From contig PIZK01000012.1 in assembly GCA_002835545.1 (NCBI GenBank), positions 180,574 to 244,573 on the forward strand: a DNA stretch of 64,000 nucleotides, given 5' to 3'. Below the pieces are notes generated by a model, which searched no databases, had not been told where the DNA came from, and saw only the letters and a program-made list of their open reading frames with translations. Below are positions 49 through 9,223 of this stretch, piece by piece (the stretch's first letter is position 1; each line of letters starts with the position of its first letter). Source of the stretch: Alteromonadales bacterium alter-6D02. Lineage in GTDB: Bacteria > Pseudomonadota > Gammaproteobacteria > Enterobacterales > Psychrobiaceae. A program made the translations under genes and the position numbers.

Positions 49-124
49 GGGTCATTAGCTCAGTTGGTAGAGCAGTGGACTTTTAATCCATTGGTCGTAG
101 GTTCGAATCCTACATGACCCACCA
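49..124 (+). tRNA. tRNA-Lys (anticodon TTT)
   Basis: A 76-nt cloverleaf with acceptor stem GGGTCAT/ATGACCC, D-arm TAGCTCAGTTGGTAGAGCA, anticodon loop CTTTTAA (TTT, lysine), T-arm GTTCGAATC and an encoded CCA end. It is the second member of a tandem array separated by short AT-rich spacers. A promoter would lie outside the window, so the array is probably one transcript. Confidence 0.97.
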
Positions 125-151
125 CGCTATAGTAACAAAGTAATAAATATC

Positions 152-227
152 GGGTCATTAGCTCAGTTGGTAGAGCAGTGGACTTTTAATCCATTGGTCG
201 TAGGTTCGAATCCTACATGACCCACCA
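152..227 (+). tRNA. tRNA-Lys (anticodon TTT)
   Basis: Identical over all 76 nt to the gene upstream, including the encoded CCA. The 27-nt spacer to the previous copy is unrelated in sequence to the other spacers, so only the tRNA units themselves are conserved. Confidence 0.97.
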
Positions 228-253
228 CTATTTATTATTTGCACTCCATCGAT

Positions 254-329
254 GGGTCATTAGCTCAGTTGGTAGAGCAGTGGACTTTTAATCCATTGGT
301 CGTAGGTTCGAATCCTACATGACCCACCA
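254..329 (+). tRNA. tRNA-Lys (anticodon TTT)
   Basis: Last copy of the identical tRNA-Lys array, with CTTTTAA anticodon loop and encoded CCA. It is followed by an AT-rich stretch with T-runs around 395-425 that precedes the porin gene. Confidence 0.97.
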
Positions 330-2887: not shown

Positions 2888-3108
2888 GTGTTTGCAGGTA
2901 ATCGTACATTTGATTATTAAATTGAACCGAGCGTATTTTGTCTCACGTTCGGTTTCAAATTACAGCGCTAGCCTACCTTCAACGTGATAGTGTGAGCGCT
3001 TTCTCGCCTTTTGACCTCTGCATGCTATCAATTCATACCGCCCTCACATATAATCATTATCAACAACTTGAAAGTATTCAAGCCAATTAAAATAGTGAAG
3101 TGAACAAT

Positions 3109-3654
3109 ATGAACCAACAATCGTTAACCCTAATCAAAGACTCAATCAAAGCAATTGCCGACTATCCAAAACCAGGCATAATGTTTCGTGATGTCACTTC
3201 ATTACTTGAAGACCCGCAAGCGTTCCAGTTGGTGATTGATTTGTTAGCCCAAGAGTACAAAGATCAAGGCATCACTAAAATTGTTGGAACTGAAGCACGA
3301 GGATTTATCTTTGGTGCCCCACTTGCTTTAGCATTAAACGTTGGTTTTGTACCTGCACGTAAACCAGGTAAATTACCTCGTCCGACGCTGTCACAAGACT
3401 ACACGCTTGAGTATGGCCAAGACACATTACAGATCCACAAAGATTCATTAACAGCAGCGGATAAAGTTCTGATTGTTGATGACTTATTAGCAACAGGTGG
3501 TACGGTTGAAGCGACCGTAAAACTAATTCGTCAGGTAGGTGCTACGGTTAACGATGCAGCTTTCGTTATTACGTTACCCGATCTTGGGGGAGAAACCCGT
3601 CTTGAAAGCCTTGAACTTAATCTAACAACTCTTGTTAGCTTTGATGGTGAGTAA
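3109..3654 (+). CDS. apt: adenine phosphoribosyltransferase
   Basis: Converts adenine and PRPP to AMP in purine salvage, in the cytoplasm. The sequence follows E. coli Apt closely: [16 protein letters not shown] near the start, [18 protein letters not shown], and the PRPP-binding loop [13 protein letters not shown] around residues 123-135. The chosen ATG at 3109 gives 181 residues, matching the usual length, and is preceded by GTGAAG at a normal distance. An in-frame GTG at 3100 would add three residues and overlaps that ribosome binding site, so it is less likely. It lies 21 nt upstream of dnaX; apt-dnaX linkage is the same as in E. coli. Confidence 0.97.
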
Positions 3655-3675: not shown

Positions 3676-6081
3676 ATGTCTTATCAAGTACTTGCACGAA
3701 AGTGGCGACCTAATGACTTTAGTGAGGTTGTAGGTCAACAACATATCTTACAAGCATTAGTAAACGCTTTAGATCAAGAGCGTTTACATCACGCTTACTT
3801 ATTCAGTGGTACTCGTGGTGTCGGCAAAACCTCGATAGCACGTTTACTAGCTAAAGCGCTTAACTGTGAGGAAGGCGTTTCTGCTCAGCCTTGTGGTCAA
3901 TGTAATAGTTGCCGAGAAATAGAGCAGGGTAACTTCATTGATTTAATTGAGATTGATGCAGCATCTAAAACGAAAGTGGAAGACACTCGTGAAATCCTTG
4001 ATAATGTGCAATACAAACCCACTCGAGGACGGTACAAAGTGTACCTTATCGATGAAGTGCACATGCTATCGAAGAGTTCATTCAATGCTCTTTTAAAAAC
4101 ACTAGAAGAGCCTCCTGAACACGTTAAGTTCCTCTTTGCGACTACAGAAACACAAAAACTACCTATTACTATTTTGTCACGGTGTTTGCAGTTTAACCTT
4201 AAGGCGTTACAGGTCAAACAAATTGAGACACAGTTAGCACATGTTCTGACTCAGGAAAAAATTAGCTTTGAAGCCCCTGCGCTGACGTTATTAGCAGAAG
4301 CGGCAAAAGGCAGTATGCGAGATGCACTTAGTTTAACTGACCAAGCAATATCGTTTGCCAACAATGCCTTAACTACCGTTATTGTTAGCGAGATGCTTGG
4401 GACGATTGATAAGAGCTACAGTTTAGAGCTTTTATCACTGGTTGCAGTAAACGATGCCTCTGCAGCTTTTACCTTGCTTGATAACATTGCTGCACTTTCA
4501 CCTGATTATGACCAATTATTAAAGCAAATGGCATTGGATGCACATTCGGCTTCTTTAGTTAAAATCGTCAAAACAGCAGCACGTGTTACCGAACAACCTA
4601 AGGCCTTATTTGAGTTTGCATCGATTGTTGAGAGTGAAGTGCTTCAAGTCTTTTATTCTATCATCCTACAAGGGCGCAAAGAACTCGCTTGGGCTGCCAG
4701 TGAACAATCTGGCTTTGAAATGGTTATATTACGTCTGCTGGCTTTTTTGCCTCGAGAGAACACTGACTGTTTAACCCAGCCTACAGAGCAAGTTGTAATA
4801 TCAGATAATACGTTGAACAAACCAACGAAGCGTACTAGTGATGAACGACAAAATCCGCTGAGTAAAATCCGCCAAGCACTAGAAGAACCATCAAATCCAG
4901 CTAAAGTGAAAGCCGAACAATTGATTCAACCAACCATTGAGTCAAGTACTGAACTTAATGATGAGGATGCTCATTTAGCGAGTTTAAATTCACAACAACA
5001 GGCGATAGAAACACAAGCTGATCAACTCAAACCTAACGTTGTTAAGCCTATCATTGATGGACCGTCACCAGAGGTACAATCTCCCAGTGCGCCCAACGAT
5101 TTATTATCGACAGCAACCACCGATCTTGACCGTTCACCTGAACAGGTAGAGCAACCGGCGAGTCAGTTTACTGAAGATGAATTGTTGAATATGTCTATGG
5201 CTGAATCGCTTGATGATGAAGAACCATACATTGATGCGGCTCAGTTTGGTGGGCATGCAACACAAGATGCTGCTAGTGAACATCTAACAGATGAATTTGC
5301 TTCATCGGCTTCGGTTGTTGACACTCCAGCTTTAGGGATCAGTGAATTTTTAAAAGCTAAATCGCGTTTAAAGAACCAAGTACAGTCTCAAGAAAGTACT
5401 CCTGAAAAAAGTACTCCTGAAAAAAAGGACCTAGCAGCGCCGAAAGTTAATGATGATGAGTCACTAGACTCACCTTCGCCGCTGCAAGCAGTAAACCAAA
5501 GTAACACTGTTCAACAACAAGTGGTCAGTCAGCCGGTAATGCCAACTGAACATCGTGATGTGAATGTAGAATTAGCTGAACAGCATTCAGCACTTACCGC
5601 TGCACATTCACCGCCCACGCCAACTAGCGCTGAACAACGAACAGCCGTAGCTTTAGTTAATGATCCAGCAACACTGCTGGCACCAAATACAGATGATCCT
5701 TGGAGTGTTTTAATTGACAAAATGATGTTGGGTGGACGGATCAGACAGTTAGCGATCCATTCTACGTTTAGCCAACAAGGTAGTGATGTTAAATTAATCT
5801 TACGTCAGGAGCATCGCCATCTAAACAGTCAGAGCCCTGTAGCAACTTTACAGAAAAACTTATCGATGGCGCTGGAGTTACCCATTGAGTTACAAGTAGA
5901 CATCGGGGACAGTCAGCATCAAACACCGTTTGAAATAGCGACTGAATTACATCAGACACGTTTAAACCTAGCGATGCAATGTATAGAAAGCGATAGCAAT
6001 GTTGTATCCTTTCAACAAAACTTTGGTGCGCAGCTAATGCCAGAAAGCGTTAAGTATCGTACAATAAAGGCAATTAACTAG
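3676..6081 (+). CDS. dnaX: DNA polymerase III subunits gamma/tau
   Basis: Clamp-loader ATPase of the replicative polymerase. The 801-residue tau form has the P-loop GTRGVGKT (45-52), zinc cysteines C64, C73, C76 and C79, the Walker B region IDEVHMLS and the sensor SRC region, as in E. coli domains I-III (to about residue 370). A long acidic, Q/S/P-rich linker of about 300 residues follows, and a C-terminal domain from about 670 should bind the alpha subunit. tau is larger than E. coli tau (643 residues), mostly through the linker. An internal -1 frameshift signal (5421-5485) could produce a shorter gamma. It is followed 76 nt later by ybaB, the classic arrangement. Confidence 0.97.
5421..5485 (+). 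promoter_or_regulatory. Programmed -1 ribosomal frameshift signal in dnaX (putative)
   Basis: The slippery heptamer A AAA AAG occupies 5421-5427 in the zero frame. Six nt later an 11-position stem GCAGCGCCGAA (5434-5444) pairs with TTCGCCGCTGC (5475-5485) with one C-C mismatch. A smaller hairpin GAGTC/GACTC (5458-5462/5467-5471) lies inside the loop. A -1 shift after K584 adds seven residues (GPSSAES) and stops at TAA 5448-5450, giving 591 residues. Heptamer, spacing and stem match the design known from E. coli dnaX. I do not see a strong upstream Shine-Dalgarno-like stimulator. Confidence 0.75.
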
Positions 6082-6157: not shown

Positions 6158-6487
6158 ATGTTTGGTAAAGGCGGAATGGGCAATTTAATGAAACAAGCCC
6201 AGAAAATGCAAGATGATATGGCAAAAGCACAAGCTGAAATCGCTAATATGGAAGTGACTGGCGAATCAGGTGCTGGTCTAGTAAAAATTACGATGACCGG
6301 TAATCATAACGTGCGTCGTGTTGAAATCGACCAAGACTTAATGGAAGACGACAAAGAAATGTTAGAAGATTTAATCGCAGCAGCGATTAATGATGCAGCG
6401 CGTCGTGTTGAAGAAACCAACAAAGAAAAAATGGCAGCTGTAACTGGTGGAATGCAAATGCCACCAGGTATGAAAATGCCGTTTTAA
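6158..6487 (+). CDS. ybaB: YbaB/EbfC family nucleoid-associated protein
   Basis: A 109-residue small dimeric DNA-binding protein. The N-terminus [18 protein letters not shown], the central [17 protein letters not shown] and the acidic [13 protein letters not shown] helix are typical of the YbaB/EbfC family, which binds DNA as a tweezer-like dimer. The ribosome binding site GAGAG is about 7 nt upstream of the ATG. It follows dnaX as in most gammaproteobacteria. recR, its usual next neighbour, is here displaced by about 2.1 kb by an opposite-strand gene, and a strong terminator follows ybaB. Confidence 0.95.
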
Positions 6488-6682: not shown

Positions 6683-8413
6683 TTATTCAGACTTCGCTTT
6701 GATTTGTTCAACTTTCTTCGCTGCTTGTTCTTTCGCTTGAGATTTTGATTCAACAGCTTGTTCAGCGAGCTTCTTCTCACTTTGGACAGTCTTTTGTTGA
6801 GTTATATCTTTCGCTTGCTCTTTTACAGTCGCGATTTTTTCAGCTACTGCCTCTGTGGTTTGCTTAACGTTTAGTTGCGCTTTCGCCGCATTACTATCGA
6901 CTTGTAGCGGTGCCTGTTCGACAATTTTAGCCAAAGGTTCAGCCGTCACACTAACTTGTTGAGGAGCTTGTTGTTCAACCTCTGTGGCTTGGACTTGGGC
7001 TTGTGATGCGGCAGCTTCGTTAACGGATAATTGCTGTTGGGGTGCTTCTACTAACGTCTCTAGTGGTAATACTGCTGAATTCTGAGCTTCAGACAATACA
7101 TCAGTTTGAGGTGAGTCCACTTTTAGATCGCCAGCAGGATCTGTTTGCGGTGCAAATGATGCAGCCGGCTGTACAGAGGCTGCGGTCTTTAAACGTTCTT
7201 GCTCAAGTTGACGCGCTAGTTCCTGTGCTTTGAGGTTAGCGGCATTAAGTGCTTCAGCCGTTTTTAGTTGTTCAACCATCATTTTATAGCTAGCGAGTTT
7301 ATCTAAGGTCACTGTTTGTGCATCTGTTAACTCTACTACCTCTTGTTCAAGTTGTGACACTTGGCTGGTAAGTTGTGTATTTTGGTTGATTAACTTAGTT
7401 TCGCTTGTTTTGTCATTTAAGCGGGCTATTGCAGTTACCTTGAGTAACTTAAGTTGCTCGATACTTGGTTGGTTTCTTAAATCTTCACTGTTAAGTGCTT
7501 GCGAAAGCTCGTGAACAAATTTTTGGTTATTCAGTAAGTAAGCCTCAAATGCAGTATCTTTTTTGGCAGCTAAGCTTGCCACTTCCTGAGCGATGTGTGT
7601 TGCATGGTCGAGTTGGAATTGAACTTTTGCAACGGCCTTTTTTATACTTTGGGTATCTCGTGGGTCTTTGTTGATCACAGCGTAGGCAAAGTCGCGGCTA
7701 TCTAATAAAGCTTGATAGCTTGTTGGAATATATTTTTGAGGTTTGTTTTTGGCTAGCGTTGAGATTTCTATATTAATTGTACCCAACTCGATTTTTTTAA
7801 CCAGTTTCACTTCAGTCGCTGTCATCTTTGTGACCAGCGCAGGCACAGCTTGTTTAACTTGCGCTAATTTACCGTCGCCAATCTTTTCAACAAAGCTGTT
7901 AATTTCTTTATTGTATTGTTTATGTTCTTTAGGAAAGAACTTTTCAAGATTCAATCCGTTAAGACGCTTTTGTTGCTTAAGTGGCTCAGCCAGTGCTGAC
8001 TCTGCCGTTTCCTTCAAGATATAAGCGGCCATGATATTTTTGTTAGCATCGTCGATATGGCGTAGCATCGTGCTTTTGGCAATAGCACGTTGTTCAGACT
8101 CACTTTTGAAAATATTGAGTGATGAAACACCATTTTGAGTAATATCATTATATTCTTCGGTGGCATCAGCCAGCGATGAAAGGGCATCTCTATATTCTTG
8201 TGGAGCATAATAACCGAGACGATCTTTTTCAGACGACTTGATCATACGATTAAGCTTGGTTAGCGCTGTTTTTACTTCACTAAAATAGCCCTGACTTTGA
8301 ACCTCTTGTGTGTTTGATTCGTTGTCATTTATTTGTGGGATTTTGATTTTTGACTGACACCCTGCTAAGGCAGTGAGAGTAATGCACACTGCACCAAGTT
8401 TAATTTTGTCCAT
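6683..8413 (-). CDS. Coiled-coil-rich lipoprotein of unknown function
   Basis: A 576-residue predicted lipoprotein. The signal peptide ends in the lipobox LAGC at residues 16-19, followed by Q-S, which favours outer-membrane sorting over inner-membrane retention. Residues about 40-330 are largely helical and charged. Residues about 340-410 form a coiled coil (QVSQLEQEVVELTDAQ). From about 415 the chain is low-complexity, rich in A, Q, V, E and K. I do not recognise the family. The helical N-terminal part recalls lipoproteins that span or organise the periplasm, but that is only a resemblance. It stands alone on the minus strand between ybaB and recR, which are usually adjacent. Confidence 0.8.
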   Translation of the reverse strand: MDKIKLGAVCITLTALAGCQSKIKIPQINDNESNTQEVQSQGYFSEVKTALTKLNRMIKSSEKDRLGYYAPQEYRDALSSLADATEEYNDITQNGVSSLNIFKSESEQRAIAKSTMLRHIDDANKNIMAAYILKETAESALAEPLKQQKRLNGLNLEKFFPKEHKQYNKEINSFVEKIGDGKLAQVKQAVPALVTKMTATEVKLVKKIELGTINIEISTLAKNKPQKYIPTSYQALLDSRDFAYAVINKDPRDTQSIKKAVAKVQFQLDHATHIAQEVASLAAKKDTAFEAYLLNNQKFVHELSQALNSEDLRNQPSIEQLKLLKVTAIARLNDKTSETKLINQNTQLTSQVSQLEQEVVELTDAQTVTLDKLASYKMMVEQLKTAEALNAANLKAQELARQLEQERLKTAASVQPAASFAPQTDPAGDLKVDSPQTDVLSEAQNSAVLPLETLVEAPQQQLSVNEAAASQAQVQATEVEQQAPQQVSVTAEPLAKIVEQAPLQVDSNAAKAQLNVKQTTEAVAEKIATVKEQAKDITQQKTVQSEKKLAEQAVESKSQAKEQAAKKVEQIKAKSE

Positions 8414-8623: not shown

Positions 8624-9223
8624 ATGAAATTTAGCCCTTTAATTACCGAGCTCATCGAGAGCTTAACTTGTCTTCCTGGTGTTGGTCCAAAGTCTGCACA
8701 GCGAATGGCTTTTCATCTATTAGAACGTGACCGACGTGGCGGAAATGCACTAGCAGATAGTCTTGATAAAGCGATGCATCAAGTTGAACACTGTATTACC
8801 TGCCGAACCTTTACTGAAGAAGTGCAATGTCAGATATGTAAAAATCCAAAACGGGCGGAAAATGGTCAATTATGTATTGTAGAAACGCCAGCTGATGTAA
8901 TTGCTTTTGAGCAAACAGGGCACTACTTTGGTCGCTACTTTGTCTTAATGGGTCACTTGTCACCGCTTGATGGGATAGGGCCTAATGAAATCGGGTTGGA
9001 TAAATTAGAACTATTACTAAAGCAATCGTCTATTTCAGAGGTCATTCTAGCGACTAACCCAACGGTTGAAGGTGAGGCTACAGCTCATTATATTGCAGAT
9101 ATCTGTACTGAATATCAGATTAAAGCATCGCGTATTGCTCATGGTGTTCCAGTCGGGAGCGAGTTAGAGTATGTTGATGGCACGACGCTAAGTCATTCAT
9201 TAAATGGACGCTCAGTATTATAG
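8624..9223 (+). CDS. recR: recombination protein RecR
   Basis: Part of the RecFOR pathway that loads RecA onto gapped DNA. The 199-residue chain has the N-terminal helix-hairpin-helix ([17 protein letters not shown]), a four-cysteine zinc finger (CITC ... CQIC, residues 57-72) and a Toprim domain starting with [16 protein letters not shown]. Length and order of domains are standard. It has its own upstream region because the opposite-strand lipoprotein gene separates it from ybaB. Confidence 0.96.

Follow-up and report, generated by a model that had tools for sequence, protein, structure and literature searches.

The E. coli gamma subunit is described in a passage of the review PMC5009743 as the product of a -1 shift at the heptamer A_AAA_AAG in dnaX. 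The same heptamer stands in dnaX of Alteromonadales bacterium alter-6D02, and the question this locus raises is whether it belongs to a frameshift site that makes a second, shorter subunit and, if so, what that subunit would keep and lose. The gene lies in a 64,000-nucleotide stretch of contig PIZK01000012.1, which as a whole we call the window. Its product has Pfam matches to DNA_pol3_delta2, DNAX_ATPase_lid, DNA_pol3_gamma3 (residues 236-356) and DNA_pol3_tau_5 (residues 672-792), the last two corresponding to domain III and tau domain V. It is the single full-length dnaX match in its own genome; the sole other match, 33% identical over residues 28-213, is presumably delta'. The order of the genes around it is near the apt-dnaX-ybaB-recR order of E. 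coli, with one difference, a Lys/Gln/Ala-rich, lipoprotein-like reverse-strand reading frame that E. coli lacks at this place. The genes concerned are:

3100-3654, apt-like open reading frame beside dnaX, named from a reading of its translation
3676..6081, + strand, dnaX zero frame, the 801-residue tau subunit, from the ATG-start open reading frame and Pfam
6158-6487, ybaB-like open reading frame beside dnaX, named from a reading of its translation
6683-8413, - strand, open reading frame of 576 residues between the ybaB-like and recR-like genes
8624-9223, recR-like open reading frame, named from a reading of its translation

The heptamer lies between domain III and domain V, where a dnaX-type site is placed, and the zero-frame codons around it are GAA (5419), AAA (5422) and AAG (5425). 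The -1 frame reads GGA CCT AGC AGC GCC GAA AGT TAA, so that seven residues follow residue 584 and the product would have 591. Downstream, within the roughly 5-9 nt expected of E. coli-type sites, begins a presumed stimulatory stem of 10 pairs and one C-C mismatch, with a loop of 30 nt. The preliminary description had reported a zero-frame A AAA AAG, a 6-nt spacer and an 11-position stem with one mismatch, and had predicted a shift at residue 584, a stop after GPSSAES and a gamma of 591 residues; all of this was found in the sequence as described. The parts of the cassette are:

5421..5427, + strand, slippery zero-frame heptamer A_AAA_AAG (AAA AAG being codons 583-584), from sequence reading
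5427..5450, + strand, -1 frame tail GPSSAES and TAA stop, from sequence reading
5428..5433, + strand, 6-nt spacer GACCTA
5434..5444, + strand, 5' arm of the presumed stimulatory stem, GCAGCG-C-CGAA, from fold, helix search and paired changes in the genus
5458..5471, + strand, small predicted hairpin GAGUC-ACUA-GACUC within the stem loop, from the fold
5475..5485, + strand, 3' arm of the presumed stimulatory stem, TTCG-C-CGCTGC, from fold and helix search

A second in-frame canonical heptamer, T_TTA_AAA, lies at 5349-5355 in an FLK motif, where the -1 frame stops after FKS, and occurs also in locus L008. It was rejected as the main site: loci L009 and L010 code FLK with TTG and L013 has FLQ, so none of these three carries it at that motif.

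The heptamer alone is weak evidence, because 11.5% of synonymous shuffles of the window dnaX also place one in frame in the linker. This figure is what speaks for a reading in which two lysines of a low-complexity linker happen to stand next to a fortuitous stem. In-frame A_AAA_AAG occurs four times among 44 open reading frames of the window (17,964 codons; these are 44 of the 46 frames of at least 150 residues, two overlapping minus-strand frames being excluded). A pattern search of the whole genome, with three matches against two for a backwards control, is given no weight here. The stem is much more distinctive. The dnaX heptamer has a helix score of 24, and the other three in the window score 10, 10.5 and 11.5. 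None of the 259 other codon positions of the window dnaX linker matches the helix at this spacing. The 63 nt from 5428 to 5490 fold at -20.8 kcal/mol (z -3.58, 0/200 shuffles as low), and over 110 nt z is -2.71, with 1/200 shuffles as low.

The preliminary description had proposed that close relatives be checked for the heptamer and stem, and in the genus both are kept. The genus set comprised nine genomes, the window's own included; eight gave a dnaX hit at or below E 1e-60 and in seven the gene was complete. One gene (G008) is cut by the end of its locus and was left out, and the draft genome G002 (600 contigs) gave no hit at this threshold. All seven complete genes carry an in-frame heptamer and a stem of 9-12 pairs at a spacer of 6-8 nt, and in each of the seven as good a helix is found at no more than 0.83% of control linker positions. 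In the six congeners compared with the window (G001 and G003-G007) the stem stands 6-8 nt downstream and the site falls at residue 470-639. The stem sequence differs between members, the window's stem included. At 7 of the 12 positions of the stem both partners change while Watson-Crick pairing is kept, and two cells of the table are non-standard (C-A in L013 and C-C in the window). As the arms had been picked beforehand by the helix search (for L013 the tied alternative at spacer 6 was taken), these paired changes lean towards structure, and the control is the rank of each helix among linker positions.

The same site is widespread in the order. We assembled 110 loci, 30 from searches and 80 hand-picked among the matches listed (291 of 295 genomes had a match), so the sample is biased towards better matches. 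Four were dropped, L029 (no open reading frame by the start motif), L012 and L033 (off the locus end) and L117 (a 371-residue frame), leaving 106 complete genes. A related-locus search gave five further loci; by their identical site tables two of them are the same as genus loci (L003 as L008, L004 as L014), and the other three, from Paraglaciecola, stayed outside these counts. The heptamer is in frame in the linker of 89 of the 106, where shuffling synonymous codons within each gene predicts 12.8 (sd 3.2). Adding E. coli gave sets of 107 and 90 genes, the latter being the 89 heptamer genes and E. coli, and where a gene had several heptamers the last before domain V was taken.

Measured against its own linker, the site ranks in the top 10% for helix score in 45/90 genes, for fold energy in 39/90 and for anti-SD pairing in 48/90, and in the top 5% in 31/90, 34/90 and 34/90, respectively. 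Each of these shifts is significant against a uniform spread. The controls for stem and Shine-Dalgarno (SD) pairing are nevertheless blunt, since the proven site of E. coli ranks only at 7.9% for helix, 16% for fold and 8.9% for anti-SD pairing in its own linker; the median gene of the 90 stands at 10% for helix and 16% for fold. The -1 stop comes one residue past the heptamer in 57/90 genes, compared with 8.8% of control linker positions; the window gene, with its tail of seven residues, is not one of the 57. Some loci depart from the common arrangement. In five of genus g25, family f25 (L020, L034, L040, L046 and L087), the heptamer falls at residues 372-387, immediately beyond domain III, and the implied gamma is much shorter; four of them stop one residue into the -1 frame. 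In three of genus g35 in the same family (L066, L067 and L078) the linker is without A_AAA_AAG.

The rank of the stem in its linker, the conservation with paired changes in the genus and the excess of heptamers across the order make the cassette more than chance. Together with the excess of early -1 stops, they leave the fortuitous reading with a probability close to negligible.

The Rfam model of the dnaX element, RF00382, has no match in the window, a scan of 5200-5700 that allowed E values as high as 10 also found nothing, and its six matches in the genome as a whole are all below the gathering cut-off (35 bits) and none is at dnaX. As controls, the model gives 96.8 bits for E. coli and recognises L073; it misses L009 and L088, two other non-enteric-looking loci tried. 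As the window site and both of these loci are missed, annotation by RF00382 would overlook gamma in such genomes. A search for literature on dnaX in Psychrobium found none.

We consider this a standard dnaX programmed -1 ribosomal frameshift, with a probability of roughly 87%, that makes tau (801 residues) and gamma (591 residues). The heptamer, its frame, the stop, the stem and their conservation are directly observed, and from them we infer that the shift takes place here, with some efficiency. On its sequence, the site is orthologous in gene, and matches in position, to that of E. coli K-12 (gamma annotated as YP_009518751.1). Both have A_AAA_AAG, and the differences are of detail: the stem begins 5 nt downstream in E. 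coli and 6 nt here, the loop found by the same helix search is 12 nt there and 30 nt here, and E. coli has an internal Shine-Dalgarno sequence and a -1 stop after one residue, whereas the window site has no such sequence and an early TAA after seven. In the proposed mechanism tRNA-Lys(UUU) would decode AAA AAG while the stem 6 nt downstream holds the ribosome. A fraction of ribosomes would slip back one base and terminate seven codons on, giving a gamma with the ATPase, lid, domain III and a long linker that would then enter the clamp loader. The remaining ribosomes would make tau, which also has the regions corresponding to those that bind DnaB and the polymerase.

The tRNA supply is consistent with this mechanism. 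The genome has five tRNA-Lys genes, in one cluster and all UUU, three of them within the window at 49..329:

49-124, + strand, tRNA-Lys(UUU) gene, from ARAGORN
152-227, + strand, tRNA-Lys(UUU) gene, from ARAGORN
254-329, + strand, tRNA-Lys(UUU) gene, from ARAGORN

No tRNA-Lys(CUU) appears among 82 tRNA matches, all in stretches scanned with ARAGORN, although a CUU gene could have been missed, the list being incomplete because 150 of 308 candidates were scored and ARAGORN named no tRNA-Ile. tRNA-Lys(UUU) may be the sole reader of the site; according to a passage of PMC5009743, A_AAA_AAG is highly shift-prone where there is only one tRNA-Lys.

A two-product dnaX with an A-rich site is also known from Thermus thermophilus, where parts of PMC5009743 and PMC3711429 describe transcriptional slippage on a run of nine A. 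Could gamma be made here in the same way, by slippage of the polymerase on the run of seven? The heptamer does lie inside such a run (A7, 5420-5426), and a passage of PMC3711429 allows that two-ORF dnaX genes with A runs down to seven may use transcriptional realignment. The site has no run of about nine or more A or T, the Thermus-type length, and runs of nine are those named for bacterial slippage in the part of PMC5009743 concerned. The Chlorobium phaeobacteroides gene, listed with seven A in PMC3711429, is credited in a passage of PMC5009743 with stimulatory signals like those of E. coli. The conserved heptamer frame, stem and spacing are moreover features that transcriptional slippage does not need. 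With A7 and a conserved frame and stem, the window fits ribosomal slippage, and a transcriptional origin of gamma here is very improbable.

Elsewhere in the order, A_AAA_AAG is absent from the linker of 17/106 complete genes, and 4 of these 17 (L082 in G273, L101 in G205, L059 in G281 and L072 in G094) have A9 or A10 runs in the linker or at its start; in these four, transcriptional slippage may have taken the place of the heptamer. In L117 (G075), at codons 360-371 of the dnaX match, the zero frame ends at residue 371, just past an A10 run, and another frame is open beyond. Either slippage yields a longer product there, or the junction is broken or unrelated.

Upstream of the heptamer the window site differs from most of its relatives. 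In E. coli and five of the six congeners an SD-like stretch begins 13-18 nt ahead of the heptamer, at -6.1 to -12.6 kcal/mol. At the window site there is no such element within -12..-24, the best pairing being -0.9 kcal/mol (the 79th percentile of linker positions), and the best within 90 nt upstream is -5.6 at -89; these values used a standard 16S 3' end, which may differ from that of this genome. The place that the element occupies in most congeners is taken by a repeat that extends into the A run of the heptamer:

5393..5425, + strand, perfect 15-bp tandem duplication, 2.2 copies, encoding STPEK twice

A passage of the review PMC5009743 gives the 5' SD a major part in the frameshifting of E. 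coli dnaX. Its loss may lower the efficiency of the shift, and the duplication in its place gives some ground for regarding the site as weak or a relic, an inherited cassette that without its SD shifts at a low level and makes little gamma. This would overlap with our preferred reading. The stem is nonetheless the strongest of its linker, the heptamer and stop are intact, and L014, with a weak SD only (-4.1), still keeps heptamer and stem, so we regard decay of the site as unlikely. That the duplication replaced the SD stimulator, leaving a cassette driven by heptamer and stem alone, is somewhat less doubtful, and we put it forward tentatively.

A standard frameshift at residue 584 implies a long gamma, and the preliminary description had contrasted this with E. 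coli in two ways. Its statement that gamma keeps more of the linker holds: 228 residues separate domain III from the site here, compared with 72 in E. coli. Its statement that gamma loses only the alpha-binding end does not. From the site to the domain V tryptophan there are 92 residues here, 93 in E. coli and 94, 76, 76, 103, 76 and 50 in the six congeners; to the C-terminus there are 217 here and 213 in E. coli. These near-equal distances suggest that window gamma would lack domain V and also the part that corresponds to E. coli domain IV. The 11 residues just before the window site are also similar by eye to E. coli VLAARQQLQRVQ. In these sequences the extra length of the predicted gamma is linker upstream of the site, and the place of the site matches that in E. 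coli. A section of PMC11470591 assigns DnaB binding to E. coli domain IV, residues 430-498, and alpha binding to the C-terminal end; from their position, the window residues after 584 may likewise bind DnaB.

Across the order the distance to the tryptophan is much looser, from 10 to 277 residues and within 60-130 in only 47/90 genes. The site falls between residues 372 and 751 (median 536, 90 genes), at residue 500 or later in 54/90 and at 584 or later in 21/90, the window gene included; it is at or before residue 430 in 8/90, E. coli included. As predicted from these genes, a long gamma is common in related bacteria, and the supposed contrast with E. coli is one of linker length. It is the E. 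coli gamma that lies at the short end of the order genes examined.

The locus thus adds a well-supported dnaX frameshift site for a marine genus, one that is ordinary in kind. If the duplication did replace the SD element, the ratio of tau to gamma may differ from that of the congeners, and the gene would offer a natural test of the importance of the SD.
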